This document shows positions 1,018-37,692 of a DNA stretch of 39,501 nucleotides, piece after piece. This DNA comes from Treponema sp. (GTDB taxonomy: Bacteria; Spirochaetota; Spirochaetia; Treponematales; Treponemataceae). The notes beneath the pieces were generated by a model. It searched no databases and was not told the origin of the DNA. It worked only from the letters and a program-made list of their open reading frames with translations. The stretch covers positions 1 through 39,501 of the forward strand of contig JAAYNH010000008.1 in NCBI GenBank assembly GCA_012520945.1, in the 5' to 3' direction. The translations under genes and the position numbers were made by a program. The stretch's first letter is position 1. The number at the start of each line of letters is the position of its first letter.

Positions 1018-1689
1018 CTAAAATATGTAAGAAAATTTATTTATTGCTTTTTTGCTGTATCTAAAACCTAAGTCTAATTGAAACTCATATGTTATATCAT
1101 AAGGTTCAATATTATTATTTGAGCCGAAGTTACCATTGTCTAAACTTGCAAAACCGTTAATTAAAATAGTCCAATGTTTTGAAAGAGGTAATTCCAGTCC
1201 TAGTTGTATTCCTGCACCTAAATTGAAATAATTGAAGCGGTCAGACATTTGATATAAAAAGTGAAGACCTGGAGCAAAATTAATGCGGACATAATTCCAC
1301 ATATCCGTTTTGAAAATAGGTCCAGCAAATAAATCAAAGGCATAACGTAAAACTTGTTTTGGTTCTTGAAGTACGGAATTAAAAGCACTATTTAGTGGAT
1401 AAAAGATAGCAATTCTCACCGTGGAGTCAATAGGTTTCATATTAAATGTTGTAAAACTCAAATATGCACCAATCATAAAATCATCAAAAACAAAATTACT
1501 TCTGTCATTTTGTTTTTGAATACGTGTTACATTGCTTATTGTTATGCCTTCATTAAAAACAATAAAAGGGGCCTCTTTAATTATGGGAAAACCTGTAACC
1601 GGATGGAGTTCATCTGTATCTGAGACTTCTTGTGTGTGTGCAAAAATCGTTAAAAATATTAATGTAGAGCAAAGAAAAATTTTTTTCAT
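1018..1689 (-). CDS. secreted beta-barrel-like protein of unknown function
   Basis: A 223-residue protein with a cleavable-type signal peptide (MKKIFLCSTLIFLTIFAHTQ). The mature part is rich in alternating polar and hydrophobic residues and aromatic girdles (YVRINFAPGLHFLY, FNLGAGIQLGLELPL, YEFQLDLGFRY). It ends in phenylalanine, as outer-membrane barrels do. I do not recognise a named family. It is the last gene of a four-gene minus-strand operon of exported proteins. The stop codon of the preceding gene lies 10 bases before its ATG, and an AGGTA ribosome site lies in that gap. Outer-membrane or periplasmic location is inferred from composition only. Confidence 0.7.
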   Translation of the reverse strand: MKKIFLCSTLIFLTIFAHTQEVSDTDELHPVTGFPIIKEAPFIVFNEGITISNVTRIQKQNDRSNFVFDDFMIGAYLSFTTFNMKPIDSTVRIAIFYPLNSAFNSVLQEPKQVLRYAFDLFAGPIFKTDMWNYVRINFAPGLHFLYQMSDRFNYFNLGAGIQLGLELPLSKHWTILINGFASLDNGNFGSNNNIEPYDITYEFQLDLGFRYSKKAINKFSYIF

Positions 1690-1699
1690 ATTATGTTAC

Positions 1700-2050
1700 C
1701 TAGTTTGAAATTTTATACAAAGTCATAAATTGTGAAACTATGCCACTATTCCAAGTTAGATACATCATATTACCGCGAATGTCCCATTCCGTTACAACTG
1801 TGTCGGTTTGATCTTCATCACGAATAATGTAAAAAATTAATGAATTAAGTAAAACCTCGTATTTTCCTGATATATTTGATGAATATCCTGTTTCATTATC
1901 AACAATTATCGCAGTGAGAGAACCATCATTTGAAAATGAAATTTTGCTGCCGTTATTATCAGCCCAAGAACCATAAAACGGACTAGGGGTGTAACAACTA
2001 ATAAATAAAAAAAATATTATTAAAATTATACTAAAAAATTTTTTTTTCAT
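1700..2050 (-). CDS. small lipoprotein of unknown function
   Basis: A 116-residue lipoprotein. I start it at the ATG at 2050 (MKKKFFSIILIIFFLFISC) because GAGGTAAGT lies just upstream, and because a longer in-frame extension would run back through the end of the preceding gene. The lipobox is FISC, with the acylated Cys at residue 19. The mature domain of about 97 residues reads GSWADNNGSKISFSNDG … GKYEVLLNSLIFYII, with a WDI … YLTW strand near the end. This resembles small lipocalin-like "copper resistance/META-type" beta proteins, but I would not name a family. It is third in the FN3 operon, 31 bases after the previous stop. Confidence 0.75.
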   Translation of the reverse strand: MKKKFFSIILIIFFLFISCYTPSPFYGSWADNNGSKISFSNDGSLTAIIVDNETGYSSNISGKYEVLLNSLIFYIIRDEDQTDTVVTEWDIRGNMMYLTWNSGIVSQFMTLYKISN

Positions 2051-2081
2051 ACTTACCTCAAGTTGTGTAATTTTATTGGTA

Positions 2082-4244
2082 TTATTCTTCACCAATTGTC
2101 CAACTAACTTCAACGCGTGTTGAACCAACCGGTTCAATGCCATAAGTTCCACCTCCGGCATTTCCACCTTTTATTTCAATTTTGTCATAATATACTTTAC
2201 CGGGATACATACCTGTACATTCCATTGTTCCGTCCATTGTACCATTTGCACTCATGTTTGCAGTTGTATTTGTGTTACCTGTTACACAAAAATAAACTCC
2301 TTGAGAAGCATCGTTATTAATATAAAAATCCGCAAAATTTTCGTATCTCATGGTAATTCTTGCACCTAAACCTTGAATAGCTGCATTATATTCAAGTGTA
2401 CCGCTGATTATGCCATTTACTTTTTCATTACCAATTTTATCCATATCATTCGATTTATTCATAAGTGTTAGTTTTTTATGACTGTTTTTAATGGTTTTAT
2501 TATATTCTCTCATATATTGTTCGTGGCTTAACGCTCCGTAACCAAAGTCATTTGGAGAGTAATTTGTTCCTTGTCCAAGAGAGTTTACCGCTAAAACTTT
2601 GTAATAATAATATGTTCCGGCTTTTGCTGTATCATTGTTATCTATATATGATAGGTCAGAAATCGGCGAATCAAAAACCTTTCGCCAACCGCTGTCTGTT
2701 TTTACGGAACGATATAGAATGTAGCCGTCAGGGTCATCGTTATTTGGTTTTTCCCACATGATTTTTACCGGATAAACACCGGAACCATTTGCACTTGCAC
2801 CGTTTATGTAAAAGTTTTTAGAAACATTTATTGTTTGCGGTGCAAAAGGAGCAGGAGTTGTAGCATTACTAAATATGCTTTCTATGCCTTTTGAGTTTTG
2901 TGTTTTAATTTTGTAAAATTTTGTTGGCACATTAATATTTACAGTGTAAAAACCATCTTCATCAGTTTGTATATCTGAGGCAGCAAAAGATTGTAACAAA
3001 GTTGAAAAGTCTCCGTCATTTGATGCATCGCCATAAATATTATATGTATAATTTTGTTTTTCTGTATCCGTGCCGATAGCAGCATTAAAGCGTAAAAAAT
3101 TTTCACCTATAAGAGTTTTAGACGATTCTATTTTTGTCGGAGCACTTAAAATATAACCTTCAGCAATTGAATCAGAAAGTTGACTTTTTAGCTTTGTGCC
3201 TGTTTCAGCATCTAGTGTCCAAGCCTGAACTTTATAGTAATAAAAAATACCGGGTTTGAGAGTAGTTGTATCAGTAAATGATGTGGTCGTTGTTCCCGCA
3301 GTTAATAAAGATAAAGATGAATCTTCGCTGGATGTTCTGTAAACACTGTATTTTACTTCACTGTCTGCAACAACTTCAGACCAAGTAATTTTTATGGACG
3401 CTAATGTGTCTCCGCGTCCTTCGCCTGAGACAACTTCTACGGATGAAACTTTTGAAGGGGCACCTGCAACTAAAGCATAACCAAGAGCTAAATTGCTTTG
3501 TACACTTTGAATAAAATTTGAATTTTCGGCAATTATTGCATAATAAAAATCTACACCTTGTTCTTTTTCAGTAATGTAATTTGTAAAATAATTCATATTT
3601 GCTGTTACAGAAGCAATTTTTTCTAAACCGGAACCATCTGCATTTGTTGTCCGAAAAATTAAATATTGTGATGCATTGTTTGAGTTTTTCCATGAAACTG
3701 TGATACTTTCTGTGGAGTTTCCCAAATCTGCTTGTACATCTGTTGGGGAGGAAAAAAGAGTAGCGGCTTTTGAAACGGTAAAGTCACTAGCCTCGAAATT
3801 TGAGCGGGTGTTAACGGCAGAAATTCTATAAAAATAAGCATAAGAATATTCAACACTTGAGTTCGTTGGATTGTGTAAAATAACATCATTGTATGTTGTT
3901 CCGTAAACATAATCTTGGAAAGCTAGAAAATCTTCATCATTTGGTGTTTCAAAATTGCCTGAAGCGTTTTTTTCTTTAACAATCGCCTTTTCAATTTCAT
4001 AATAAATTGCATTCGGTACGGCATTCCAACTTATAAAAATAGTACTCGGAGAAAGACCTTGAGAAACAAATACTTGAGTTGTTGGAGAAAGTTTTGTTGC
4101 AACAGTTTCTTTTGTTAGCAAGGTAGATAAATTTCCTAAGTTTTTGCCTGTTTGCATTGGTACTTTATCTTGAAATAAATAAGAACAAGAGTTAAAACAA
4201 AAAAGAGTAAAGATTAGCAAAAGAAAATGTATGTTAATTTTCAT
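2082..4244 (-). CDS. fibronectin type III repeat lipoprotein, 720 residues
   Basis: The start is chosen at the ATG at 4244 (MKINIHFLLLIFTLFCFNSC), which restores a lipoprotein signal with lipobox FNSC. The ATG is 1 base beyond the stop codon of the upstream gene, so translation is probably coupled. About five fibronectin-III-like units follow. Each has a SWNAVPNA-, SWKNSNNA- or TWSEVVAD-type strand, a YYYK-V strand (KPGIFYYYKVQAW, KAGTYYYYKVLAV) and a closing region with LS or SDS. The last 130 residues are not FN3: they hold a Lys/Asn-rich stretch and then a glycine-rich domain (NGIISGTLEYNAAIQ … EIKGGNAGGGTYGIEP). Likely a surface or periplasmic scaffold or binding protein; the ligand is unknown. 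Confidence 0.8.
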   Translation of the reverse strand: MKINIHFLLLIFTLFCFNSCSYLFQDKVPMQTGKNLGNLSTLLTKETVATKLSPTTQVFVSQGLSPSTIFISWNAVPNAIYYEIEKAIVKEKNASGNFETPNDEDFLAFQDYVYGTTYNDVILHNPTNSSVEYSYAYFYRISAVNTRSNFEASDFTVSKAATLFSSPTDVQADLGNSTESITVSWKNSNNASQYLIFRTTNADGSGLEKIASVTANMNYFTNYITEKEQGVDFYYAIIAENSNFIQSVQSNLALGYALVAGAPSKVSSVEVVSGEGRGDTLASIKITWSEVVADSEVKYSVYRTSSEDSSLSLLTAGTTTTSFTDTTTLKPGIFYYYKVQAWTLDAETGTKLKSQLSDSIAEGYILSAPTKIESSKTLIGENFLRFNAAIGTDTEKQNYTYNIYGDASNDGDFSTLLQSFAASDIQTDEDGFYTVNINVPTKFYKIKTQNSKGIESIFSNATTPAPFAPQTINVSKNFYINGASANGSGVYPVKIMWEKPNNDDPDGYILYRSVKTDSGWRKVFDSPISDLSYIDNNDTAKAGTYYYYKVLAVNSLGQGTNYSPNDFGYGALSHEQYMREYNKTIKNSHKKLTLMNKSNDMDKIGNEKVNGIISGTLEYNAAIQGLGARITMRYENFADFYINNDASQGVYFCVTGNTNTTANMSANGTMDGTMECTGMYPGKVYYDKIEIKGGNAGGGTYGIEPVGSTRVEVSWTIGEE

Positions 4245-4245
4245 C

Positions 4246-7200
4246 TTACCACCATCCATATTCTGAAGATTTAGTCCAATCGGTATTGTCACCTGAGCCG
4301 TATAAAGTTGATGAATCACTGTACCATTTTATTGGTAACCATTTTCGTCTATTTACTTCATCACCGGAAATGGAAATTATGTCTGTTTTTACTCCATTTT
4401 GTGTAACAGAAATATTGACGGAATTTTTTGAGCCTGTAAAAGTTACGATGCCTGAGTAACATTCAGGTAAATAGTCATAAAATTTAGTAACATTCAAATT
4501 TGCAGAATCAAAATCCGATAATGCACTGTTGACTCCGGTTGTTTTTCCACAACGTGTCCATCCGCTTTTATCAATCGTAAAAAACGCGTCAATATAAGTT
4601 GATAAATCTTCTTGTCCCGGATATGTTAAATAACGGTTTTGAAAATTAATCATCTCATACCAAATTTTCCAATCTTTGTTTTTTAAGGAGAAAGTGCCCG
4701 CTCCGCCGGAAATTGTACCGCTAGGATAAGAAGATTTATTGAAACCTTCCGCAACAGCTAACATTATACATCGTGCAAATTCCGTTTCAGTAATTTTTCT
4801 AAAAGCAAAAACATTATCATCATCACTAAAAGAACAAGTTATTATTTGTGAGTCTAACCCTGTTCGCGTTGTTGTTATGGCAACATAATGTTTGTAATCT
4901 CTTAAAACATATAAAAGGCCTTTGTTTACATCTGTAGCAGAGGTTTTTTTTGCTGACAGTGAAATTGTATTACCTAATGTAGAAATATCCGTATTTGCAA
5001 TGTCAGGATTTGAAATTATTACTTGTCCTGTTGTGATATTGATTGATGCAATGTTTTGCCAATTAGGTGAGTTATTTAGGTTTTTCACAGAAATAATATA
5101 GTCGGTTTCCGGAGCACGTTTTTTCTTTACAGTATCATATAAATTCCAAGTAATTCTTTCTGAAAAACTTGATTTACCATTTTCAGGCACATTTGTTGCA
5201 GTAATATCAATTGCAAAAGTATATCCTTTATTGATAGCTTCGCCAAAACTGTCTGTGTTTTCAGTGTTTTTAAGTTCCGCTAAATATGTTGTTTTTGGAA
5301 CAAGCGAGTCACTTTGATATTTAATTGCAAAATCAAAAGATTCGGTTCTGTCGATACCTTTAGGTATATAAATAAATTTATCGCCGGAAGCATCTAAAAC
5401 TACATCGGTTTTGTGCCAATTATTTGTGCCTGAAACGGTTTTCCATAATGTTGGATTTGAAGATGACTTACCCAAATATGGTTTATCCCACGTTATTATA
5501 ATTTTTCGTGGATCTTCTGCTTTTGATGCATTAACATTGTGGCCATATCCTAATGCGGAGCCAATGTCGGAAACGTCATCAATGTTTGTATAATCAATCA
5601 ATGATGCAACATTATCTTCTTTATTTTTTAACGGAATAATTGTATATCGATACGGAAATCCCCACGCAATTTTATCTTGATTAAAATCATAGCTTGAATC
5701 ACTATTAATTAATTCTTTGTAATAATCTTGCAATGTAATATTTGAACCCAAGTCTATAGCTTGTGTAGTATTTGAGTTGACATCTTCATTATTAAGTGTG
5801 ATTTTACAATCCGATGCAGAAACGACATATGAATCTGTGGAAATAGATGTAGAGCAATCAAGAGAAAGGCGAGAGCGTTTTACAGCATATCCTTGAGCTC
5901 CTGAAATTTTGTTCCATGAAACAATGATTTTACTTGTATCCGTTGCTTTGCTTGCACTGGCATTTGTTAAAGCAGGTCCTAAAACATAAACATTGGTTTT
6001 GAAACTTTCTGTTACAATTTGTTCGGAATCAACTGTGTTTTCAGCTTTGACACACAAGCGTAAATGTCGACCGGCAACTCTGGCATCATGAAAACCAATT
6101 GGATTCAATATTGAAAAGAATATTGAGCCATCGTCATTTAAGACAAATCCGTCAGACTCAATATTTGAAATGTCAGAAACCTCTTTTTCAATGTAACCTA
6201 GTGTTCCTGTCAAACTAATATTAGCATTGTTTTCAAAATTTCGAATAGATTTTAGTTCTTCAGGTAAAACATACTCATCATACTCATATTCATAATATAT
6301 TGAATATTTTTGTGCTTTTTGTACGGGTGCCCAACTAATGTTGATTTTATCATATTCAGGTTCATGCCAAGTTATGTTTGCTTTACCTAAAGTTTGAAAT
6401 GGTTCGTCTTGTAAATCATCACTTGTTTTTTCAACGGCAAAACCGCGAATTGCAGTTAATTTATATTTTCGTGCATCTCCTGAAACTGCTGAATCTTCAA
6501 AACATATGACTGTGCCATTTGTAGCAGTTTCTAAAAATGTGTCAAGTGCAACTTCTATTGCTGCCGTTGAAAATGAATCAACAATCCATTGATCTAATTC
6601 TTTTGTTGCTTTTACATATTCTAATTTATATTCACAAGTGTTATCATATTTCCATTTAATTAAAAACTTATCTTTATAGCCGTCAATAATTGAAAAGTCA
6701 TCAATTGAATGAATTTGTGTACTGTCGGTAATAAATACTCTTTTTGATGCATCAATACTTTCAATAACAGAATTATTATCATGGGCATCTACAATTTTTA
6801 ACGTATAATTATAATAGCCACGGTCTTTCGGTTCCGAAGGACTAGCACCTGTTAATTCAAAAATTCGTATAAAATTGTTTAGCTCGGAAATTGAGTTAAA
6901 TTTACGGTTTTGTGCTTCATGAACAGTTGAACCGTCACTTTCTAAATCTGTTTTTATTTCTTGCAAAATAAAATTATAATTATCTTCCATATTGAAGGTT
7001 TCCCAAACTAATTTAAAACCGACTGAATTTTTAATAATGGCAGTCTCATCTTCATTTTTCACAGGATTTGTGTTAGTTACATTGAAAGATGGAATTGTCA
7101 AAGGCCAACCGATAGTTTGGGCAATTGAAAAATCACTGGAAATGATGCGATTTGTATCGGCAAAAGATTGCACTTTGTAAATATAACGTAAACCTCGTTT

Positions 7201-8181
7201 TATTGAATTATCGATAAATGAAAATTCCTCTCCTGGAATATATTCTGCAGGGCGTAAATTTGAGGCAATTTCAATAAAATTTTCTGAATTTTCATTTTCA
7301 TTATAGATTTGACGATAAACCTTGAAATAAATTTTTTCGCTTTTGTATACACCGTTACCTAAGGCAACATCGACAAAGTTAGGTAAAATAAAGGAAAGCT
7401 CAACTTTATCCGGAAAATTTCCTTTTGAAGCGATAAGGTTTTGTGGGGCATCCGGTCTTAATCGGCGAGCTGTTTCTGCGTCCACTATTTCTGAAATCTC
7501 AACTTGATTGTGGTCATTTACATTAAATGCTTCTACAGTGAAAAAATATTTTGTACTTGGATTTAAATTAGTAAAAGTAACAAAAGTGTCGGAAGTTTCA
7601 GCACCATTTAGAGTTTTTTCTGCAACAACGGAACCTTTTTCATCTGAGCATTGAATTATATAGCGTACATTTTTTTCATAGGTTTCGCTATTTACATTAT
7701 TCATCCACCAATAAATTCGAATTGTAGAATCTCCTGAGGCTTTGTCTTTTTCAATTAAACTGATTACAGGTTGTGCAAGACTAGTGCCACAAACCGTTGT
7801 ACTAAAATCTGATGTTGTTCCGTCGGATTTAGCAGCACGTACTTTATAATAAGTCGTTGTTCCGGCAGCACAAAAAAAATCTTTGTTTGTTATGTCTTTG
7901 TTTGTTTCTGCTACCTGTTTAAAAGTTTCAAAAGGATTTGTCGCTGAAAAAATATCATATCGTATCGCTTTAGGAATTCCTGACCACGAAAGTGTAATTT
8001 TTCCTTTTACACCTTGACTGGCCATAATATTTTGAGGGGCACCCCAAAGAATGTTTTCAGATGTTGTGTTGCTTGCCGGTAAAGATGAACCGAAGTTTGG
8101 TGATGGCAAAAGTTGATTATCACATGAAACTAAAAAACAAAAAAATAAAATAAAAAAAATAAATTTGAATAAAGTTTTCAT
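4246..8181 (-). CDS. giant fibronectin type III repeat lipoprotein, about 1311 residues
   Basis: First gene of the exported-protein operon. The signal peptide is MKTLFKFIFFILFFCFLVSC with lipobox LVSC. I favour ATG at 8181 over the adjoining GTG at 8184, because AGGA is then correctly spaced. The protein is a string of divergent FN3-like domains. Each starts with a phrase such as APQNIMASQG, APQNLIASKG or TNASASKATD, then a buried-Trp strand (LSWSGIPKA, VSWNKISGA) and a YKV/YTI strand. Two long insertions occur between domains. The last 190 residues form a different domain with WYEMINFQNR and the ending WTKSSEYGWW. A lipid-anchored repeat protein of this size suggests adhesion or glycan binding. 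The function is not determined by sequence. Confidence 0.82.
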   Translation of the reverse strand: MKTLFKFIFFILFFCFLVSCDNQLLPSPNFGSSLPASNTTSENILWGAPQNIMASQGVKGKITLSWSGIPKAIRYDIFSATNPFETFKQVAETNKDITNKDFFCAAGTTTYYKVRAAKSDGTTSDFSTTVCGTSLAQPVISLIEKDKASGDSTIRIYWWMNNVNSETYEKNVRYIIQCSDEKGSVVAEKTLNGAETSDTFVTFTNLNPSTKYFFTVEAFNVNDHNQVEISEIVDAETARRLRPDAPQNLIASKGNFPDKVELSFILPNFVDVALGNGVYKSEKIYFKVYRQIYNENENSENFIEIASNLRPAEYIPGEEFSFIDNSIKRGLRYIYKVQSFADTNRIISSDFSIAQTIGWPLTIPSFNVTNTNPVKNEDETAIIKNSVGFKLVWETFNMEDNYNFILQEIKTDLESDGSTVHEAQNRKFNSISELNNFIRIFELTGASPSEPKDRGYYNYTLKIVDAHDNNSVIESIDASKRVFITDSTQIHSIDDFSIIDGYKDKFLIKWKYDNTCEYKLEYVKATKELDQWIVDSFSTAAIEVALDTFLETATNGTVICFEDSAVSGDARKYKLTAIRGFAVEKTSDDLQDEPFQTLGKANITWHEPEYDKINISWAPVQKAQKYSIYYEYEYDEYVLPEELKSIRNFENNANISLTGTLGYIEKEVSDISNIESDGFVLNDDGSIFFSILNPIGFHDARVAGRHLRLCVKAENTVDSEQIVTESFKTNVYVLGPALTNASASKATDTSKIIVSWNKISGAQGYAVKRSRLSLDCSTSISTDSYVVSASDCKITLNNEDVNSNTTQAIDLGSNITLQDYYKELINSDSSYDFNQDKIAWGFPYRYTIIPLKNKEDNVASLIDYTNIDDVSDIGSALGYGHNVNASKAEDPRKIIITWDKPYLGKSSSNPTLWKTVSGTNNWHKTDVVLDASGDKFIYIPKGIDRTESFDFAIKYQSDSLVPKTTYLAELKNTENTDSFGEAINKGYTFAIDITATNVPENGKSSFSERITWNLYDTVKKKRAPETDYIISVKNLNNSPNWQNIASINITTGQVIISNPDIANTDISTLGNTISLSAKKTSATDVNKGLLYVLRDYKHYVAITTTRTGLDSQIITCSFSDDDNVFAFRKITETEFARCIMLAVAEGFNKSSYPSGTISGGAGTFSLKNKDWKIWYEMINFQNRYLTYPGQEDLSTYIDAFFTIDKSGWTRCGKTTGVNSALSDFDSANLNVTKFYDYLPECYSGIVTFTGSKNSVNISVTQNGVKTDIISISGDEVNRRKWLPIKWYSDSSTLYGSGDNTDWTKSSEYGWW

Positions 8182-8209
8182 CACAAATTCCTGTAATATA
8201 ACAATGAAT

Positions 8210-8238
8210 ATTATACACTAAAATATATTAATATACAA
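8210..8238 (-). promoter_or_regulatory. promoter of the FN3 lipoprotein operon
   Basis: Read on the minus strand this is TTGTAT, 17 bases, TATAAT, with the -10 at 8215-8210. The predicted start near 8203 leaves a leader of about 21 bases that carries the AGGA ribosome site. Confidence 0.65.
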
Positions 8239-8293
8239 ATATAATAAAGTAAATATAAATAAATATAATAAAATTAATAATGTAAAAACTTAT

Positions 8294-8314
8294 ACTGTAA
8301 TTAAACTGTAATTA
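8294..8314 (+). repeat. tandem 10-base direct repeat upstream of the tmRNA promoter
   Basis: ACTGTAATTA occurs at 8294-8303 and again at 8305-8314, an 11-base period of about one helical turn. It ends 12 bases before the -35 hexamer of the tmRNA promoter. It could be an AT-rich UP-like element or an activator site; no regulator can be assigned. Confidence 0.4.
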
Positions 8315-8326
8315 ATTAGAAAAAAA

Positions 8327-8355
8327 TTGACATTTTGTTTATTATTAATTATACT
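8327..8355 (+). promoter_or_regulatory. strong sigma-70-type promoter of tmRNA
   Basis: TTGACA at 8327-8332, a 17-base spacer and TATACT at 8350-8355. The predicted start at about 8362 lies 10 bases before the mature tmRNA 5' end. Confidence 0.85.
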
Positions 8356-8371
8356 TATATTACGAAAGCTT

Positions 8372-8722
8372 GGGGGTGCACCGGTTTCGACGGGTGTGGT
8401 CGTGGGCTTGAACTGCAGGTGAGGTCGCCGGTCCTCTAAACCGACAAAATTTATAACTGCCAACAATTCAAGCAGTTACGCAATGGCAGCATAGTTTGCT
8501 TTGCGCGGAAACTTCATTGTGCCGCTCTGAACGGTGAATGTTTCTGTCGATAATCGGGGCTTGCTGTGAAGGTTGTCTGATTTCTTTACGGGACTTTTAT
8601 CAGAATAAGGGAATGACGCTTTCGGTGCTGACACCATTCCCCGACAAATATCTCGCACCGATAAACCTGTAGACGTTCCTGTCTCCTACATTCGGACGGG
8701 GGTTCAATTCCCCCCATCTCCA
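8372..8722 (+). ncRNA. ssrA: transfer-messenger RNA (tmRNA)
   Basis: A 351-nt RNA that rescues stalled ribosomes and adds a degradation tag. The acceptor stem pairs GGGGGTG (8372-8378) with CATCTCC (8715-8721), with the discriminator A at 8722. The T arm is GGGGG (8698-8702), loop TTCAATT, CCCCC (8710-8714). The 5' region has the conserved CACCGGTTTCGACGGG. The mRNA-like part reads A-N-N-S-S-S-Y-A-M-A-A then TAG, from 8459 to 8494. The tag ends AMAA instead of the usual ALAA. CCA is not encoded at the 3' end and must be added enzymatically. A near-consensus promoter precedes it. Confidence 0.96.
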
Positions 8723-8764
8723 AACCATTTTTCCCTATTCGGTTCATGCTAAAGATGTGATAAA

Positions 8765-9655
8765 ATGATTAATGTAATTCGTGCTGACATTTTAGGATAT
8801 TGCATGGGAGTTCGCCGTGCTGTTGAAATGGCTGAAAACTGCCTTGAAAATAATGTAAAAACACAAGGAAGTGTTTTTTCTTTTGGACCATTGATTCATA
8901 ATAAAACCGCTTTAAAAACATTAGCATTAAAAGGACTGTCTGTATTAGATTCTGAAAATATTGATTCTCTTAAACATAATGATACTGTGATTATTAGAGC
9001 ACATGGTATTCCTCCAAAAATTAGGCACAAAATTGAGACTACCGGAGCGAAAATTGTTGATGCAACTTGTCCCAGAGTACTTTCAAGTCAAAAACGTGCT
9101 TCTAATTTTGCAAAAAAAGGGTTCACTATAATTTTAGCAGGTGATAAAAATCATGGTGAAGTTGCAGGCATTGCCGGTTGTGCTGAAAGTTTTGGTGCAA
9201 AGTGTATTGTTGTAGAAAATGTTATGGATGCAAAAAAAATACCACAGTGTAATGATAAAGCAATTTTGCTCAGTCAAACAACAATTTCGCACAAAGAATA
9301 TGATGATATTGCAAGAATTTTACAAAAACGAATGGAACATTTCCAAGTTTTTGATACAATTTGTCCGGCAACTAGCGAAAGACAAAAATCTTTGGAAAAA
9401 TTAGCAAAAAAAGTTGAAGGTATTATTGTTATTGGCGGAAAAAATTCTGCAAATACTCAACGTCTTTTTCTAGCTTCTCAAAAATATTGTGATGATAATG
9501 CATATGAATGTAAAATTTCTTGTCATATTGAAACTCCTGATGAAATTCCTGAAAATTTTTTTCAATTAAAATCAATAGGTATTACTGCGGGTGCTTCAAC
9601 TCCTGACAATATAATAGATGAAGTTGAAGAGATTTTAATAGGAAAATCTTGCTAA
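8765..9655 (+). CDS. ispH: 4-hydroxy-3-methylbut-2-enyl diphosphate reductase
   Basis: A 296-residue enzyme of the last step of the MEP isoprenoid pathway. It makes isopentenyl and dimethylallyl diphosphate and uses a cysteine-bound iron-sulfur cluster. The three cluster cysteines are C13 (GYCMGVRRAV), C102 (DATCPRV) and C200 (TICPATSERQ). The substrate-site motifs GPLIHN and HGEVAG (H130, E132) are intact, as is the C-terminal TAGASTPDNIIDEV. The protein is full length for the short form that lacks a fused S1 domain. The ATG at 8765 has only a weak upstream ribosome site (GATGTGAT). It lies 43 bases after the tmRNA, and I see no separate strong promoter or terminator between them. Confidence 0.96.
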   Translation: MINVIRADILGYCMGVRRAVEMAENCLENNVKTQGSVFSFGPLIHNKTALKTLALKGLSVLDSENIDSLKHNDTVIIRAHGIPPKIRHKIETTGAKIVDATCPRVLSSQKRASNFAKKGFTIILAGDKNHGEVAGIAGCAESFGAKCIVVENVMDAKKIPQCNDKAILLSQTTISHKEYDDIARILQKRMEHFQVFDTICPATSERQKSLEKLAKKVEGIIVIGGKNSANTQRLFLASQKYCDDNAYECKISCHIETPDEIPENFFQLKSIGITAGASTPDNIIDEVEEILIGKSC

Positions 9656-9752
9656 TATTTTAAGAATAACATTTGTTTTTATGAGTAGAATAATATTTTT
9701 ATATATTTATAATCATTTATCATAGCATAAATTTGTTATTAAAAAAATTAAA

Positions 9753-9782
9753 TTGACAAATAAAAAATGTTTATGAAATTAT
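9753..9782 (+). promoter_or_regulatory. candidate promoter of the PL1-PL9 lyase
   Basis: TTGACA at 9753-9758 is a perfect -35. The best -10 is AATTAT at 9777-9782 after 18 bases, only four of six matches. A start near 9789 would give a leader of about 145 bases. It is the only well-matched -35 in this 279-base AT-rich gap. Confidence 0.35.
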
Positions 9783-9882
9783 TTTAAAAAAATTGTTAAT
9801 ATATTGTTATTGATTACAAAATTAAAATATATATAACAAAATAATGCGACAGTTTTATCCAATTAATTATCTGTAAATTTTC

Positions 9883-9896
9883 TAACAATATTGTTA
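9883..9896. promoter_or_regulatory. 14-base perfect palindrome upstream of the PL1-PL9 lyase
   Basis: TAACAATATTGTTA reads the same on both strands and ends 25 bases before the Shine-Dalgarno sequence. Two further ATTGTTA half-sites lie at 9792-9798 and 9803-9809. It could be an operator for substrate control of the lyase, but AT-rich sequence makes such palindromes fairly common. Confidence 0.35.
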
Positions 9897-9934
9897 CAAT
9901 TACCATAGGTATTAGAATTACAGGAGGTGTAATT

Positions 9935-12900
9935 ATGATAAAAGGTAAAGGGAAAATCTTCTGGCTTGTTGCTGCTTGTCTGATAGCCATTAGCTTTCTC
10001 GCTGTCGGATGTGGCAAAGAAGCCGAACTCGACGTTTTAGGTACAGGTGAACGTGGTATTGTTAGCCAAGGTTCAGTTAGTTTAAAAGTATACGGTGCTT
10101 GGTATGAGTCCGTATATGCTGAGTGGTCAGGTTCCAGCCAATCTGTCTACTATGGAACAAGTAGTAATCCAACAACACCGGTTGATTCTAACTTGATTCG
10201 TGCAGTTTCCGGTGGTTATCGTGTTGATATTCCCGGATTAAATGGAAATACAACATATTATGTTAAAGTAGGAACTACTGTTTTCAATGCAAAAACATTG
10301 GCACACGTACGTGAAGGTTATGCTTTTGTTAACGGAACAACAACCGGAGGTTACAAAAACGGAGCCGGTGGTGCGAAAATTCTTTATGTGAATAACTCAA
10401 ATAAAGATTCTATCAAGTGTGATGTTACAAAAGGTTCAACAACTTCTTCTTATACCGGCTTGGGCAACATAATGAAAGCTCGTGAAAGTGCAAAAGATGA
10501 AACTCCTCTTATTGTGCGTTTTAGCGGTTCAATTTCTGCTCCAAGCGGTGTAGATTCAAACAAATTGTTGAATATTAAAGCAACTAAGAACGTTACTTTT
10601 GAAGGTCTTGGTTCAGATACAATGTTCAACGGTTGGGGGCTAAACGTTCGTGCATCTTCGAATATTGAAATTTCAAACATCGGTTTCAAAGACTTCGTTG
10701 ATGACTCTGTTTCAATTCAAGTAGACAATGATCACATTTGGGTTCATAACTGTGATTTCTTTATCGGTGCTAACGGTGGTGGCGATAAAGCAAAGGGTGA
10801 TGGTTCATGTGATATTAAAGATAATTCAACTTATATTACAATTTCTTTTAACCATTTCCACAATACAGGAAAATCTTCCCTTTGCGGTATGAAGAGTGAG
10901 ACAGCCGGAAAAGGCTTCGTTACATATCATCACAACTGGTTTGATGTTTCCGGTTCACGACATCCACGTGTTAGAACAATTACGGTTCACGTTTATAATA
11001 ACTACTTTGACCACTGTTATTCAGCTGGTATAGCTGCAACAATGGGTTCATCGGTTTTTGTTGAAAATAACTATTTCGAAGATGTTACTATGCCAATCAT
11101 TACAGCAAGTCAAGGTCACTCAATTAAAGATCGAGATTCGGATTTCTGTTCAGGTGAAGATGGCGGTGTAATTAAAGCTTACGGTAATACTTTTGGAACA
11201 TGTGGCGGTTCAATCACATACCTCGATGGAAGTTTGAAAACTGTAACTAAAAAATGTGTAGGTTGTACTGCATATAAAGGAGGAACAAGTGTTAGTTCTT
11301 CAGTGTCTGCAGAAGATTGGCCGGATTTTTATGCTGCAACTTCACGTAATGCACAAGTTCCATCAACATTTAAGGCATACAAAGGCGGAAGTACATATAA
11401 CAACTTTGATACAAAGAATTTTTATAGCTACAATGTTCAATCTGCTTCAGATGCACGCACAACAGTTACGGCTTTAGCCGGACGTTGCGGTACAGGTTCT
11501 TCAGCCGGTAGTGTTATTGATCAAGATAATGGCTCTGAAAATACAACACCTACTCCAACTCCTGAACCAACACCTACACCGGAACCAACTCCAACTCCTT
11601 CCGGTGCAACAGTTTATTCACTTTCTGCAAGTAGTTTGTCAACTGCAACACTTACATCAAACAAAACATACGATGCATTTACAGTTCTTGCTACAAGTGC
11701 AAAACCTGTGAAAATTGTTTCAGCTAGTGCTTCATATAGTGGTACTTCTTATACAAAAGCATTTGATCTCGGTGGTGGTGCAAACGGCGTTGATGCTCAA
11801 TATCGTGCATTCAAATTTGAGGCAAAGAAAGATGCAAAACTCACTGCGATTGTTAATGCTAACTCAGACAGAGTGTTGACTCTTTCTAACGGTTCTGCAG
11901 TTATTACTACAAAGACAATTAAAGATACAACAGCATTTACATATACAATTCCTGCAGATGGAACATATTATTTGTACTCAAAATCAAGTGCTATTCGTGT
12001 ATTCTATATTTCACTTGAAACGGTTGCCGTAAATGTTCCTCCAACAGTTTCTGTCAGTGTTGCTTCTACAGGTACTGTAGGTGTTGGTGTAACAATTAGT
12101 GCAAGTGCTTCAGATTCAGATGGTTCAATTGCAAGCGTTAGTTTCTATGTTAACGGTTCAAGAAAATCAACAGATACATCAAGTCCTTATGCTATGACAT
12201 GGACACCGGATGCTGCCGGTACATACTCAATTTATGCTATAGCAACAGATAATAATGGTGCTACGGCTACATCTTCATCAAAAAATATTACAATTACTGC
12301 TCCTGTTGTTGCAAATAAAGCTCCAACTGTATATCTTACAGAACCGTCAAATGGTACTGTGAAAACAGTTGGCGACAGTGTTGTTATTCGTGCAAATGCT
12401 TCAGATTCTGACGGTTCAATTAACAATGTTAAGTTTTATGTTAACGGTTCAAGAAAATCAACAGATACATCAAGTCCTTATGCAATGACATGGATTCCTG
12501 CAGATCCGGGAACATACACAATTTATGCTTTAGCAGAAGATGATAAGGGTGCAACAACAGCTTCATCTTCCGTTCAAATTACTGTAAATGCAGCTTCAAG
12601 TGGCGGTTCAACTCCTCCTTCTTCTTCAGCTTCATCTGTAAACTTTAACAGCCAAAGTACTGCAACACTTTCTTCAAACAAAACAATTGGAGATTTTACA
12701 ATTATTGCAACAAGTGCAAAAACTGTGAAAATTGTTGCTAATACAGCTTCTGTAAATGGTGTTTCTTATACTAAAGCATTGGACTTAGGCGGTGGTTTTA
12801 GCGGTGTGTTGCCAACATATAGAGCAGTTAAATTTAATGTTGGTCAAGGTGCTAATGTTACAGTTGTTGCTAGTGCAAATGCTACACGTACATTAGTTCT

Positions 12901-14452
12901 GTCAAACGGAACAAAACAAATCGGTACAAAATCCGTTTCAGCAACTGCAACAGCATTTGTATTCAATAATTGTGCTGAAGGAACATACTACGTTTATTCA
13001 GCAAGTAGTGCAATTCGTATTTATTCAATTGAAGTTTCCGGTTCATCAAGTTCCGGTGGTGGTTCAACATCTCCTGACCCAACTCCTGATCCAGGAACAG
13101 GCGGTTCATCAGGTTCAGGTTCTGTTAGTTTCAGTCAAAGCGGTAAAACACAAAGCGGTGTTGGAACACGTTCAGCAATTCATGGTGTGAAAATTAATAC
13201 AAGTAATGTTGGTTCATCAATTAGAGTTTCTACTGCATCACAATTTGTTGACGCTCTTAAATCTGTTCAAGCCGGTGGTGTTATCATCATGCAAGCAGGT
13301 ACATACAAATTCAGTGAGCAAGTTAATATTTCATACGGTAATAATGGTTCTGCAAATGCATACAAATACATTGTTCCTGAAAACGGCGGAAGTGTAACAT
13401 TGGACTTCTCAGGACAATCATATAATTCTTCAGATACTTCAAAGAATGCTCGTGGTCTTCAATTGGAAGGTAATTACTGGCATATTTATGGTATTAGATT
13501 CTATGGTGCTGCAGATAATGGTCTTTATGTAGCCGGTAATAACAATATCATTGAGTATTGTGTATTTGAAGCTAACCGTGACACAGGTTGTCAAATTAGT
13601 CGTCGTGCTTCTTCATTGAGTTCAATCAATGATTGGCCTTCATATAATACTATTATTAACTGTACATCTTTTAACAATAATGATCCTGCAACAGGTGAAA
13701 ATGCTGACGGCTTTGCAGCAAAACTTACGTGCGGACCGGGCAATGTTTTTGACGGATGTATAGCTTATAACAACGTTGACGATGGTTGGGACTTGTATGC
13801 AAAAACTGCTACCGGACCAATAGGTGTTGTAACAATTAGAAACTGTATTGCATTACGCAACGGTCAAACATCAAGCGGTGCTTGCACAGCAAATAGTGAC
13901 GGAAACGGATTTAAACTTGGTGGTGCAGGCGTTGGTTCAGCTCACGTTATTAGAAACTCCATAGCTTTCTCAAATAAAAAGCATGGTATTACTGATAATA
14001 ACAATCCTAAACTTGCTGAAGTTTCATATTGTACATCATATAATAATGGAACGGGCGACAGTAACGGTGCAAACTTCCAATTGAATCGTGCCGGAACAAG
14101 TTTGAAAATTGCAAATATTATTGGTTACAAACCTACAGGAACAACATCTGATAGCATGATTGGTAAAATTTCCAACTCTATTTATTACAATACAAAAAAA
14201 TACTATCATGTGTCTTCTGAAACATCGATTAATAAAGATAAACCTGGAACAGTAATCAGTACTCCGGCGGCAAGTATATTCAAGAGTACAAGTATTCCGT
14301 CAATAGGATATAATTTCCATGCAAACTGGAGAAACAGTGATGGTACAATTAATACTCAAGGTGTTTTAGCTAGAGGTACAAATTCTTATGGAACAATGGG
14401 AGCTGCTTTTGGTTCACAAGCTGCAACAGTTTTAGCAACATATATTAAATAA
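9935..14452 (+). CDS. bifunctional lipoprotein pectate lyase (PL1 + PL9) with Ig-like and carbohydrate-binding-like modules
   Basis: A 1505-residue lipoprotein (lipobox AVGC, Cys26) with a strong AGGAGGTG six bases before the ATG. Domains in order: a beta-sandwich of FN3 type (about 44-118); a PL1 pectate lyase (about 120-480); a TPTPEP linker (about 537-557); a carbohydrate-binding-like module A (558-695); two Ig-like domains (701-788, 794-885); module B (about 898-1037); a Gly/Ser/Pro linker; a PL9 lyase (about 1065-1505). The PL1 part shows DHIWVHNCDF (H267), TISFNHFHNTGKSS and SRHPRVR (R342, R347). The PL9 part shows NADGFAAKL (D1258), NVDDGWDLY (D1282, D1283, D1286) and DGNGFKLGG (K1327). 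These fit the calcium ligands and catalytic lysine I recall for Erwinia Pel9A. It should cleave polygalacturonate by beta-elimination at the cell surface. Confidence 0.93.
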   Translation: MIKGKGKIFWLVAACLIAISFLAVGCGKEAELDVLGTGERGIVSQGSVSLKVYGAWYESVYAEWSGSSQSVYYGTSSNPTTPVDSNLIRAVSGGYRVDIPGLNGNTTYYVKVGTTVFNAKTLAHVREGYAFVNGTTTGGYKNGAGGAKILYVNNSNKDSIKCDVTKGSTTSSYTGLGNIMKARESAKDETPLIVRFSGSISAPSGVDSNKLLNIKATKNVTFEGLGSDTMFNGWGLNVRASSNIEISNIGFKDFVDDSVSIQVDNDHIWVHNCDFFIGANGGGDKAKGDGSCDIKDNSTYITISFNHFHNTGKSSLCGMKSETAGKGFVTYHHNWFDVSGSRHPRVRTITVHVYNNYFDHCYSAGIAATMGSSVFVENNYFEDVTMPIITASQGHSIKDRDSDFCSGEDGGVIKAYGNTFGTCGGSITYLDGSLKTVTKKCVGCTAYKGGTSVSSSVSAEDWPDFYAATSRNAQVPSTFKAYKGGSTYNNFDTKNFYSYNVQSASDARTTVTALAGRCGTGSSAGSVIDQDNGSENTTPTPTPEPTPTPEPTPTPSGATVYSLSASSLSTATLTSNKTYDAFTVLATSAKPVKIVSASASYSGTSYTKAFDLGGGANGVDAQYRAFKFEAKKDAKLTAIVNANSDRVLTLSNGSAVITTKTIKDTTAFTYTIPADGTYYLYSKSSAIRVFYISLETVAVNVPPTVSVSVASTGTVGVGVTISASASDSDGSIASVSFYVNGSRKSTDTSSPYAMTWTPDAAGTYSIYAIATDNNGATATSSSKNITITAPVVANKAPTVYLTEPSNGTVKTVGDSVVIRANASDSDGSINNVKFYVNGSRKSTDTSSPYAMTWIPADPGTYTIYALAEDDKGATTASSSVQITVNAASSGGSTPPSSSASSVNFNSQSTATLSSNKTIGDFTIIATSAKTVKIVANTASVNGVSYTKALDLGGGFSGVLPTYRAVKFNVGQGANVTVVASANATRTLVLSNGTKQIGTKSVSATATAFVFNNCAEGTYYVYSASSAIRIYSIEVSGSSSSGGGSTSPDPTPDPGTGGSSGSGSVSFSQSGKTQSGVGTRSAIHGVKINTSNVGSSIRVSTASQFVDALKSVQAGGVIIMQAGTYKFSEQVNISYGNNGSANAYKYIVPENGGSVTLDFSGQSYNSSDTSKNARGLQLEGNYWHIYGIRFYGAADNGLYVAGNNNIIEYCVFEANRDTGCQISRRASSLSSINDWPSYNTIINCTSFNNNDPATGENADGFAAKLTCGPGNVFDGCIAYNNVDDGWDLYAKTATGPIGVVTIRNCIALRNGQTSSGACTANSDGNGFKLGGAGVGSAHVIRNSIAFSNKKHGITDNNNPKLAEVSYCTSYNNGTGDSNGANFQLNRAGTSLKIANIIGYKPTGTTSDSMIGKISNSIYYNTKKYYHVSSETSINKDKPGTVISTPAASIFKSTSIPSIGYNFHANWRNSDGTINTQGVLARGTNSYGTMGAAFGSQAATVLATYIK
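12146..12483 (+). repeat. exact 47-base repeat within the two Ig-like domains
   Basis: Bases 12146-12192 are identical to 12437-12483, 291 bases (97 codons) apart. One mismatch then precedes a further 10 identical bases. The encoded run from FYVNGSRKS to SSPYAMTW is the same in both domains, while the flanks differ. This suggests recent duplication or gene conversion. Confidence 0.85.
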
Positions 14453-14478
14453 TATAGGCAGTCTACATTAAATTAATT

Positions 14479-14512
14479 ATGCCCCGGTATATTTTTGCCG
14501 GGGCATTTTATA
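14479..14512 (+). terminator. rho-independent terminator after the PL1-PL9 lyase
   Basis: GCCCCGG (14481-14487) pairs with CCGGGGC (14498-14504), extended by two A-T pairs outside, and ATTTTATATT follows. It is one of the few GC-rich hairpins in the window. It lies between two convergent genes. Confidence 0.9.
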
Positions 14513-14561
14513 TTATAGAAAATATGAACTTTTTACTATTTTGTTATTATTAAAAATAAAT

Positions 14562-15254
14562 TTAATTGCTGATTTTTGTACCGATAAAGATTTTATCGTC
14601 TAAAATGTCACGGATGTTTTCAATGTTTTTGCCACCTGCACAAATTACTGTGATGTCGAATTCACTTGCTTTACGACTAGCAATAGGATCAAATGGAGTA
14701 TTTTTACCCGGAACCCATTCCTCTCCAACAATTTTCATAAAATCTTTCCATGAGATTGTATCTAAAGGTTTTGCATTAGGATTTTTTCGTGGATCATCCG
14801 TATAAACTTTTTCAATATTTGAAAGATTAATAACAGTTTTTGCACCGAATTTATGAGCAAGCAAAACAGCATCTGTATCGGTTGAAAAACCCGGTTTCCA
14901 ACCTGCAGCAACCAAAATGCGTCCGTTAAAGTTTTCAACTGCTGTTGGATCATAGACAACATCATCTTTGCATAAAGAACCAAAAATAGCTTTTAAAAGC
15001 TGTGCATTTAAACGAGTTGCAGTAATACCGATCCAGTCTGCTTCATTGTTGTTATATGCAGAATCGCCACAAATAGTTTTATAGGCATTTTGGTATATGC
15101 GTGCAGGAGCACCACCTCCGATAACTAAAATTAATCGGCGTTTTTCATCAACATTAAGCCATTCTTTTACTGTGTTTAGAAAGTTATTTAAAAACTCGGT
15201 GTCTGGTTTATCCGGAACAACAATTGAACCACCAAGAGAGATAACTTTTGTCAT
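14562..15254 (-). CDS. pyrH: UMP kinase, archaeal-type
   Basis: A 230-residue amino-acid-kinase-fold enzyme that phosphorylates UMP to UDP for pyrimidine nucleotide supply. It shows SLGGSIV at the N-terminus, LVIGGGAPAR for phosphate binding, GWKPGFSTDTDAVLLA, and NIEKVYTDDPRKNPNAKPLDTISW for nucleotide binding. It is shorter than the usual bacterial hexameric enzyme and resembles the archaeal branch, as I would expect in treponemes. AGGAGG is placed seven bases before the ATG. It is the last gene of the cysS-sigma-antisigma-TIG operon, 20 bases after the previous stop. No special link with the sigma factor is evident other than co-transcription. Confidence 0.9.
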   Translation of the reverse strand: MTKVISLGGSIVVPDKPDTEFLNNFLNTVKEWLNVDEKRRLILVIGGGAPARIYQNAYKTICGDSAYNNNEADWIGITATRLNAQLLKAIFGSLCKDDVVYDPTAVENFNGRILVAAGWKPGFSTDTDAVLLAHKFGAKTVINLSNIEKVYTDDPRKNPNAKPLDTISWKDFMKIVGEEWVPGKNTPFDPIASRKASEFDITVICAGGKNIENIRDILDDKIFIGTKISN

Positions 15255-25700: not shown

Positions 25701-25712
25701 GGAGGTGTGAAA

Positions 25713-27491
25713 ATGACTAAAAGTTTTGTTGTTAAAACAATTTTGGCGATGTTACTAATTGTAACATTTGTATTTAGCGGTTGTAAATTAATTGAAAATG
25801 ATGAACTGTACGCTTTTCAAACAGAAGATAGTCGTGCAACAATTACGGGTATTTCATCATTATATTCAAATGATTTAACGCATGGAACATATACTTCAAG
25901 TTTTTCAAAAGGTAATTATAAAATTTATGCAACTTCTTCAAAAAAAGTTACTGTTCCGTATTCAAGTGCAAGTCTTGAAGGTAAAAGTTTTACTCAAAGC
26001 TTGAATCTTGGTGGTGGCGGTAGTGTTGGTTCATATCGTTGTGTTGAATTTTCAACAGGCGGTAAAGCTACTATTACTGTTTTTGCAAAAGGAGCTAGTG
26101 GTCGTTATTTGGCAATTTATAATTCAAGCAAAAGCCAGCTTGATAAGAAAAATACATCATCATCTATTGCAAAATATACTTTTACGGTTTCTTCTTCCGG
26201 CACATATACTTTAATGTCTACCGGTTCTGCAATTGAGATTTTCTATATTAAAACAGATGCAAGCGGTACAAGTAGTTCATCATCAAGCTCAAGTTCATCA
26301 TCAAGTTCAAGTTCATCAAGCGGTTCAACAGCCGGTTCCGGTACAATTTCAATTAATGACAGACCTGTAGGTTTTGCAAGTGTTTCTAAGCCGTCAAATT
26401 CAGTTACAGTTTCAAGTCGTTCAGATTTGATTAATTATGCAAAAAAAGGCGGATACATTATTTACGTAAATGGCATGATTGATATGTCAGACGGATATCT
26501 TCCTTCAAGTGGCGGTGGCGGAAGTTCAAAATTAGATGCATTAGTTAAATCAAATACATCCGGTAAATATTCTTCATATACAGCTTTCCGTGATGCATAT
26601 GCAAAAGGTTGTTCAACTTCAACAGATGATAAATCTTCGTCAAGTCCTTCAAGTTCATTAGGTAAATATCTTTGGGCTTGTAATAAAGCATATGGTGATA
26701 TTATCAAATTGAATGTTGCTTCAAATACGTGGATTATTGGTAAAAGCTCATCATCCGGTATCAAAGGCGGTATGGTTAATATTTCAAGTGTTTCAAATGT
26801 TGCTATTCGTAATCTTATTATTCAAGATGGTTATGATCCATTCCCACATCATGAAAAAAATGATGGTTACAATTCACAATGGGATAATCTTCTTATACAA
26901 GGTACATCACAAAATATTTGGATTGACCATTGTACATTCAGAGACACAATGGGTGTAATAAATGTTAAAACCGGTGGTTCAACAACTGAAAAATGGCAAA
27001 CATATGATGGTTTGTGCGATATGAAAGGTTCAATTAAGAATATCGTTATTTCATACTGTAAGTTTATGGACCATGATAAAACAATGTTAATTGGTTCAAG
27101 CGACAGTGACGGATCAAATTCAACAAGAACAATTACAGTGCACCATAACTATTTTTATAACTGTGGACAACGTTTACCAATGGTTCGTAACACAAAATTA
27201 CACTTGTTTGGAAACTACTATGATTCATCAAGTCCGCGTTATGCAAACCAGTATGCTTGTGGCGTTCGTAAAAATGCTTTGATTGTGTCCGAAAAGAATT
27301 ATTTTGGAAAAGGTATCAAATATAGTTTCAAAGATAGCTATGGAAAGCTTTATTCAAGCGGTGATGTTGATAATTCCAGTGGTGGATGCAAAACTTCTAA
27401 GAGTTCATCAAAACCGTTTAGCGTTTCATATAGTTATTCTGCAAACTATAATAATGCTAAGTCATATGCAGGAACTGGTACTTTGAAGTAG
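25713..27491 (+). CDS. lipoprotein pectate lyase, family PL1, with N-terminal carbohydrate-binding-like module
   Basis: A 592-residue lipoprotein (lipobox FSGC, Cys24). The ATG at 25713 stands five bases after GGAGGTG, so I prefer it to the GTG at 25707 that overlaps the ribosome site. A beta module (about residues 45-180) is homologous to the two modules in the larger lyase: SFTQSLNLGGGGS, GRYLAIYNS, GTYTLMSTGSAIEIFYI. A polyserine linker follows, then the PL1 lyase (about 215-592). Family residues are NIWIDHCTF (D405), DGLCDMKGS, FMDHDKTMLIGSSDSD and QRLPMVR (R487, R492), the catalytic-arginine motif. It should cut polygalacturonate at the cell surface and act together with the larger enzyme. 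Confidence 0.94.
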   Translation: MTKSFVVKTILAMLLIVTFVFSGCKLIENDELYAFQTEDSRATITGISSLYSNDLTHGTYTSSFSKGNYKIYATSSKKVTVPYSSASLEGKSFTQSLNLGGGGSVGSYRCVEFSTGGKATITVFAKGASGRYLAIYNSSKSQLDKKNTSSSIAKYTFTVSSSGTYTLMSTGSAIEIFYIKTDASGTSSSSSSSSSSSSSSSSSGSTAGSGTISINDRPVGFASVSKPSNSVTVSSRSDLINYAKKGGYIIYVNGMIDMSDGYLPSSGGGGSSKLDALVKSNTSGKYSSYTAFRDAYAKGCSTSTDDKSSSSPSSSLGKYLWACNKAYGDIIKLNVASNTWIIGKSSSSGIKGGMVNISSVSNVAIRNLIIQDGYDPFPHHEKNDGYNSQWDNLLIQGTSQNIWIDHCTFRDTMGVINVKTGGSTTEKWQTYDGLCDMKGSIKNIVISYCKFMDHDKTMLIGSSDSDGSNSTRTITVHHNYFYNCGQRLPMVRNTKLHLFGNYYDSSSPRYANQYACGVRKNALIVSEKNYFGKGIKYSFKDSYGKLYSSGDVDNSSGGCKTSKSSSKPFSVSYSYSANYNNAKSYAGTGTLK

Positions 27492-36033: not shown

Positions 36034-37674
36034 ATGGTGTTTATGAAATTACTTAAAAGAATATTTTTTTTAGTTTTTATTTTTATATCCTTAAATTTAT
36101 TTGCCTTACCTGAGCAAAAATTAATTAATTCATCACATTGGATTTATGATGCATTAAATGATTTGTGCATTGAATCAAAAGTTGTTTCGATATTACATAG
36201 AGCACCATTATCAATAATGGAATTAAAATTTGTTTTTAAGAAAATTGATTATGAAAAACTTTCGATTAGTGGAAAAAAACAATATGAAAAAATTCAGTCT
36301 TTTTTTAATAAAGAAAATTTAAGTTTTAAAACAGGAGAATTAAAACTTGCTTTTGATATTGAAACGGCATTTGAAATATATTTAAAAAAAGACAAAGATG
36401 AAAAATTTTTTTATCCTTATCAAAAAAAAATAGCACCGATTAATTTGCCATTGTTTTTTTCTTTTAATAATTTTTTGACTACGCAAATGGATATTGCTTT
36501 TATTCAAAATATACAAGCACAAAAAGATGCAAATGTATTTATGAATATTCCATATACTACTTCTCAGTTTGATTTGGATTTTCCTTATTTTACATATAGT
36601 AGTTTAGGTTATATTTTTAATGATTCAACAATTGTTAATTTCAAAATTGGACGTTATCCTTTTTATTATGGAAAATCTCATTTAGGTAGTATAATTATTT
36701 CTGATTATTGCACAAATGAAATTACTTCGGAATTAAAAATTGTAACCGATAAATTTGGATATAGCCTGAATGTTACGCAATTAAATCCACCTCGTGATGA
36801 CAATATTTCACCTTCATATATATATTTACATGGATTGGAATTTTCTCCATTTAAAAATTTACGCATTAGTTTACTTGAAGGTGTTTTAATTAATAATCCT
36901 TTTGAATTACGATTTTTAAATCCACTAATGATTTTTCACGGTTATGCGTCATGGAATGATTATTACGGTATGGGAACACATGGAAATCTAGCACAAAAAG
37001 AAGCGTCATTAATGGGAGTTATTTTTGATTATACTCCATGTAAATATTTAAATTTTAATTTTATTTATGCAATGAATCAGTTTCAAACATATTGGGAGTT
37101 AAAATATTTTTCTGAGGCTGCAGAAAAAATTCCAGATGCCTTTGCTTTACAATTTTGCATGGATTTTAATCTTCCTTTGAACAAAGGTTATGTTTATGGT
37201 TATGCTGAAGCTAGTTATACTTCGCCATATATGTATTTAATGGAAGGAAAAGATTGGTCTTTTGCTAGAATTTATAGGGAATTAAATCCGGATCATCAAA
37301 AGCATATTGAATGGACAGGAAGTCCTTTTGGTCCGGATAGTATTATTGCGACTATGTGTGCAGGATATAAAATACCTAAACTATTTTCTTTATCTGCAAA
37401 ATATTTATTTGCTATGCAAGGTGAAAATTCTGAAACCTCTGTTCTTTTTAGTGATTACTGGCCTAAAACCGTAAGTGAAGCACGTAATTGGTTTCCTACA
37501 GGCATATTAACTTTTACACATTCAATTTCTATTTATGGTTCTTATGAATTTTCTGAAAAATTTTCTATATGTATACAACCTATTTTTATAATTAAGAAAA
37601 ATGCAAAACATATTCTTGAAAATAATAAAACTGATTTTGAGTTAATTACTTCATTAAAATATAATTTTTTTTAA
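36034..37674 (+). CDS. large outer-membrane beta-barrel protein, Wzi-like
   Basis: A protein of up to 546 residues; a start at the in-frame ATG at 36043 (MKLLKRIFFLVFIFISLNLFA) gives a cleaner signal peptide. An N-terminal helical part of about 85 residues (WIYDALNDLCIESKV … RAPLSIMELKFVF) precedes a long run of amphipathic strands with many aromatic residues. The last residue is Phe, as in outer-membrane barrels. The pattern "ydaL … rPls" then barrel is like capsule-assembly Wzi proteins, but identity cannot be shown by eye. It lies 4 bases after the GT4 gene and is paralogous in layout to the next gene. Confidence 0.68.
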   Translation: MVFMKLLKRIFFLVFIFISLNLFALPEQKLINSSHWIYDALNDLCIESKVVSILHRAPLSIMELKFVFKKIDYEKLSISGKKQYEKIQSFFNKENLSFKTGELKLAFDIETAFEIYLKKDKDEKFFYPYQKKIAPINLPLFFSFNNFLTTQMDIAFIQNIQAQKDANVFMNIPYTTSQFDLDFPYFTYSSLGYIFNDSTIVNFKIGRYPFYYGKSHLGSIIISDYCTNEITSELKIVTDKFGYSLNVTQLNPPRDDNISPSYIYLHGLEFSPFKNLRISLLEGVLINNPFELRFLNPLMIFHGYASWNDYYGMGTHGNLAQKEASLMGVIFDYTPCKYLNFNFIYAMNQFQTYWELKYFSEAAEKIPDAFALQFCMDFNLPLNKGYVYGYAEASYTSPYMYLMEGKDWSFARIYRELNPDHQKHIEWTGSPFGPDSIIATMCAGYKIPKLFSLSAKYLFAMQGENSETSVLFSDYWPKTVSEARNWFPTGILTFTHSISIYGSYEFSEKFSICIQPIFIIKKNAKHILENNKTDFELITSLKYNFF

Positions 37675-37692
37675 TCTAAGGAAATATTTAAT

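Follow-up and report, generated by a model that had tools for sequence, protein, structure and literature searches.

A probable lipoprotein of a Treponema genome joins PL1 and PL9 pectate lyase domains in a fusion apparently separate from that of Ruminococcus

The DNA analysed here, hereafter the window, is a stretch of 39,501 nucleotides from a Treponema sp. assembly (GCA_012520945.1, contig JAAYNH010000008.1). It carries an intact open reading frame with an ATG start, which encodes both a PL1 and a PL9 pectate lyase domain (Table 1). A lipobox signal is followed by a beta-sandwich module, PL1, a first CBM-like module, two Ig-like domains, a second CBM-like module and PL9. The domain matches thus confirm the two binding-like modules and two Ig-like spacers that the initial annotation had placed between the lyases. 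The stem-loop behind the gene is the sole terminator-like site within positions 9500-14700, and the flanking genes are housekeeping genes, with ispH upstream and a UMP kinase gene downstream on the opposite strand. This UMP kinase (14562-15254, minus strand) passes the cut-off of the archaeal-type family TIGR02076 and falls well short of the cut-off set for the bacterial family TIGR02075. Elsewhere in the window, four open reading frames in a row start with signal-peptide-like or lipobox-like sequences (1018-8184, minus strand), and two large ones among them have fibronectin III-like matches and are otherwise without family. Positions 36034-39480 (plus strand) code for proteins of 546 and 595 aa without a Pfam match, in a stretch of ∼25% GC.

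Table 1. Features of the PL1-PL9 gene and its flanks (positions in the window)
Feature	Position	Strand	Basis or remark
Ribosome-binding site AGGAGGTG	9922..9929	+	sequence; 5 nt upstream of ATG
PL1-PL9 fusion gene, 1505 aa	9935..14452	+	
Signal peptide with lipobox FLAVGC26	9935..10012	+	predicted lipidation
N-terminal beta-sandwich module	10055..10294	+	AlphaFold2 model; homologue matches
PL1 pectate lyase domain (D257, D289, D293, K313, R342, R347)	10355..11509	+	PF00544
Pro/Thr/Glu-rich linker	11510..11602	+	sequence
CBM-like module a (8wc1/8x8h type)	11603..12028	+	
Ig-like domain 1 (Big_7)	12029..12310	+	
Ig-like domain 2 (Big_7)	12311..12592	+	
CBM-like module b (8wc1/8x8h type)	12611..13054	+	
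Gly/Ser/Pro linker	13055..13144	+	sequence
PL9 domain (D1258, D1282, D1283, D1286, K1327)	13145..14449	+	1ru4 homology
Intrinsic terminator stem-loop, 11 pairs, T-rich tail	14479..14506	+	

The PL1 domain belongs to its family by a PF00544 match of 80.4 bits (cut-off 24; E 1.9e-22), and it aligned with the solved pectate lyases 3vmv (E 9e-27) and 7xks (E 1e-26). The modelled PL1 region is a parallel beta-helix, like these two structures. The PL9 domain aligned over residues 1073-1383 with the structure of Erwinia chrysanthemi Pel9A (1ru4, E 5e-33), an enzyme that differs from the window protein in having a single catalytic domain. All five active-site positions are identical: D1258, D1282, D1283, D1286 and K1327 correspond to positions 184, 208, 209, 212 and 248 of the 1ru4 chain, which become D209, D233, D234, D237 and K273 of Pel9A with a precursor offset that we take to be 25. 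The window protein is unlisted at E 0.01 for the Pfam model of the Pel9A-like beta helix (PF22842), which matches only 12 of 39 fused homologues. The score against the PelX exo-pectate disaccharide-lyases (NF041903) stayed below the equivalog cut-off, with 117.2 bits against 1490.

What these residues do in PelC-type and Pel9A enzymes is well established. We compared them across aligned domains, fused and unfused, of which 81 were PL1 and 86 PL9. The calcium Asp residues, the Lys and both Arg of PL1 were the same in 61 of 61 fused PL1 domains, as were the five PL9 residues in 61 of 61 fused PL9 domains. Deviations were confined to unfused rows, namely a single gap at each of four PL1 positions and at one PL9 position, and one Ser in the D257 column. 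The key residues named in the initial annotation (R342/R347 and the five of PL9) are indeed kept at their positions, and its picture of two catalytically complete-looking lyases with binding-like modules behind a lipobox is borne out by the domain, residue and pattern matches.

The N-terminal module was modelled as strands only (pLDDT mostly 84-91), and it precedes PL1 in homologues too, where the matches begin at about residues 42-58. Both Ig-like domains matched Big_7 (E 5e-27), and the second shares 75% nucleotide identity with the first over 227 nt. The CBM-like modules matched 8wc1/8x8h with best E values of 1.9e-10 and 7.7e-8. Both entries bear the title 'A carbohydrate binding domain of a putative pectate lyase', and our literature search found no paper on their ligand. 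A model of module b built from 13 sequences (pLDDT 87.6) matched the folds of 8x8h (Z 22.0) and 8wc1 (Z 21.3); its match to the R. flavefaciens module 5fu5 (Z 12.5) barely exceeded those to many other beta-sandwiches. From these likenesses the two modules may bind pectin. CBM77 (PF18283) and dockerin (PF00404) gave no match in the window. The lipobox conforms to the standard pattern of a lipoprotein signal and ends at C26, which suggests that the protein is probably lipid-anchored and could be exposed at the cell surface. As 11 of 60 Bacillota fusions match the same pattern, we do not claim that lipoboxes are absent from them. The window holds a second pectate lyase gene (25707-27491, plus strand), in which an 8wc1-type CBM precedes PL1 (PF00544, E 8.6e-35). 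Moreover, six relatives (L106 and the genomes G004, G014, G017, G026, G045 and G053) have a stand-alone CBM-like open reading frame (mostly 180-190 aa, one of 284 aa) at ∼2 kb from where a PL9 gene of PelX size gives its PL9 match.

The host genome encodes three copies of spirochaetal FlaA (PF04620), whereas 14 control genomes had none, and the window codes for a PilZN3 protein; both point to a spirochaete, probably of the Treponemataceae. The genome also contains seven PL1 regions, pectinesterase domains in four open reading frames, one GH28 open reading frame, one GH88/105 and KduI; with these pathway genes, the host is likely to use pectin. On contig C109 of the host (5158-11855), three PL1 open reading frames in a row followed by a GH28 match form a pectinase cluster. 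Treponemataceae are reported to respond to pectin-rich feed, and according to PMC11003169 their PL1 and PL9 enzymes are without functional studies.

The initial annotation had regarded the fusion of PL1 and PL9 as uncommon. This did not hold. A contig scan confirmed 272 relatives, and among the best 80 by similarity to the window query, 60 carry PL1 and then PL9 in a single open reading frame according to ORF checks. Since the 80 were ranked by similarity to the query, this figure indicates a widespread fusion, not its frequency among all PL9 proteins. The fused loci belong mainly to Ruminococcus, other Oscillospiraceae, Lachnospira, Eubacterium and a Clostridium, cultured strains included, and Pfam revealed an additional PL1-CBM2-CBM-PL9 protein in Anaeromicropila populeti (L010). 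CBM77 was present in 22 and a type I dockerin in 20 of the 39 Bacillota fusions scanned. The architecture was published in 2010 and again in 2014 for R. flavefaciens FD-1 ORF00696, with the layout SIGN-UNK-PL1-UNK-PL9-UNK(CBM)-Doc (PMC2930009, PMC4081043), and it also occurs in a rumen metaproteome (PMC7480376). A Ruminococcus PL1/PL9-CBM77 protein is reported to be active on low-methyl homogalacturonan (PMC11003169), and CBM77 is entered as a binder of that polymer (PMC5943554). The 60 loci, the published layouts and the reported activity show a fusion that is already widespread and partly characterised, which largely refutes the claim of rarity on the initial annotation's own terms. What is new here is the spirochaete host setting and the different accessory parts on a known architecture.

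The Ruminococcus enzymes (RfPL1/9 with CBM77) resemble the window protein in the order of the lyases, in being exported and in having a binding module, and the catalytic residues are common to their relatives and the window protein. However, they carry a dockerin where the window protein has a lipobox, and CBM77 where it has 8wc1-type modules; the paired Ig spacers are not listed for ORF00696, and their PL9 belongs to another clade. The closest PL9 domain (64%) is that of the A. populeti protein, which also has an 8x8h-type module ahead of PL9 but differs by the presence of CBM2 and the absence of the Ig pair; its PL1 was not found with the window PL1 as query (BLAST, E 1e-4).

The order of domains invites the explanation that the window gene and the Ruminococcus genes descend from one ancestral fusion that moved as a unit by horizontal transfer and later had its binding and anchoring parts exchanged. 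The identical PL1-PL9 order and the common N-terminal module speak for it, and the GC content of the gene (0.38-0.39, against ∼0.28-0.35 across the surrounding 8 kb) would fit a transfer. The PL9 tree, in contrast, groups the window PL9 with Lachnospiraceae CBM-PL9 proteins (support 96/93), and one clade of the window PL9 and the Ruminococcus-type fused PL9s was rejected (p-AU 0.0016, a guide only, because the grouping was chosen once the first tree had been seen). With the window PL9 outside the Ruminococcus-type set, the fusion looks separate. Kinship with the PelX-like PL9s of the family was not the best tree and was not rejected (p-AU 0.18). The window PL1 also falls outside the Ruminococcus group, on a long branch (∼1.6-2.1 changes per column) without firm placement; unfused PL1 rows nest inside the set of window and Ruminococcus fusions, so we set the PL1 test of this set aside as evidence. 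One clade of the window PL1 with another PL1 of the host (C77) and that of G014 was rejected (p-AU 0.007). We consider common descent with the Ruminococcus fusions unlikely.

The same long branch may mean relaxed constraint, as would be expected if a single domain were an active lyase and the other were kept for binding or as a spacer. Against this, the catalytic and calcium residues are all kept in both domains and PL1 models as a pectate-lyase helix, and we judge such a loss of activity to be distinctly improbable. That two genes were joined through similar modules during assembly of the metagenome bin is very hard to believe. The host assembly is in 119 contigs and the gene has internal CBM and Ig repeats of 75% nucleotide identity, but the two module blocks share no exact repeat longer than 47 nt, the reading frame runs uninterrupted and has a ribosome-binding site and terminator of its own, and the architecture recurs in many other assemblies, including those of cultured strains.

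In the family, 54 of 274 genomes match at E 1e-20. The fetched regions contain two further single-ORF fusions, G082 (L137) and G118 (L138), and ten tandem pairs of PL1 then PL9, each on one strand, with their stop-to-stop frames spaced -11 to 332 nt apart. The other three of the five fusion candidates (G126, G136 and G145) proved to be tandem genes by ORF check. The two confirmed fusions share with the window protein the order PL1-CBM(-CBM)-PL9, the CBM type and the lipobox, whereas Big_7 Ig domains were not found in them at E 0.001; they are separate fusions by the PL9 AU test, in which a single clade of G082 and G118 was rejected. In the CBM tree, the first CBM of G118 pairs with a first CBM of a PL1 gene and the second with the second CBMs of PL9 genes (100/99 each), as if the inner modules had been lost when the parent genes joined. 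Most of these family genomes are draft assemblies; no exact repeat shared by the tandem genes is longer than 26 nt, which makes assembly chimeras at these loci unlikely. Taken together, the two fusions, the ten pairs and the mosaic of G118 suggest that fusion of tandem PL1 and PL9 neighbours probably recurred. For modules a and b of the window protein, the CBM tree gave no resolution into PL1-side and PL9-side modules, and no tandem-pair sister of the window gene was found among the family relatives; its origin from neighbouring genes is thus proposed by analogy. A broader proposal, that PL1-first fusions arose repeatedly and independently in spirochaetes and Bacillota from conserved tandem pairs and were selected for coupling both cuts on one anchored chain, is one we put forward tentatively and lean against.

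We hold with good confidence that the window gene encodes a secreted pectate lyase, bifunctional, calcium-dependent and probably lipid-anchored, in a spirochaete that uses pectin, and that it formed by fusion of PL1-(CBM) and CBM-PL9 genes separately from Ruminococcus PL1/9. Its activity and ligand are predicted from sequence. The two CBM-like modules would dock on low-methyl homogalacturonan, which the PL1 and PL9 beta-helices would cut by beta-elimination, a chemistry expected from family membership, with Arg as the base in PL1 and Lys in PL9. The unsaturated oligogalacturonides released could be taken up for GH88/105 and KduI-type steps, and methylated pectin would first be processed by the pectinesterases of the host. 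A complementary attack by PL1 and PL9, as suggested in the initial annotation, is plausible. Together with its relatives, both fused and unfused, the window gene constitutes a natural set in which to ask whether joining the lyases improves pectin breakdown, and how a lipid anchor serves a bacterium that has no cellulosome, in place of the dockerin used by Ruminococcus.
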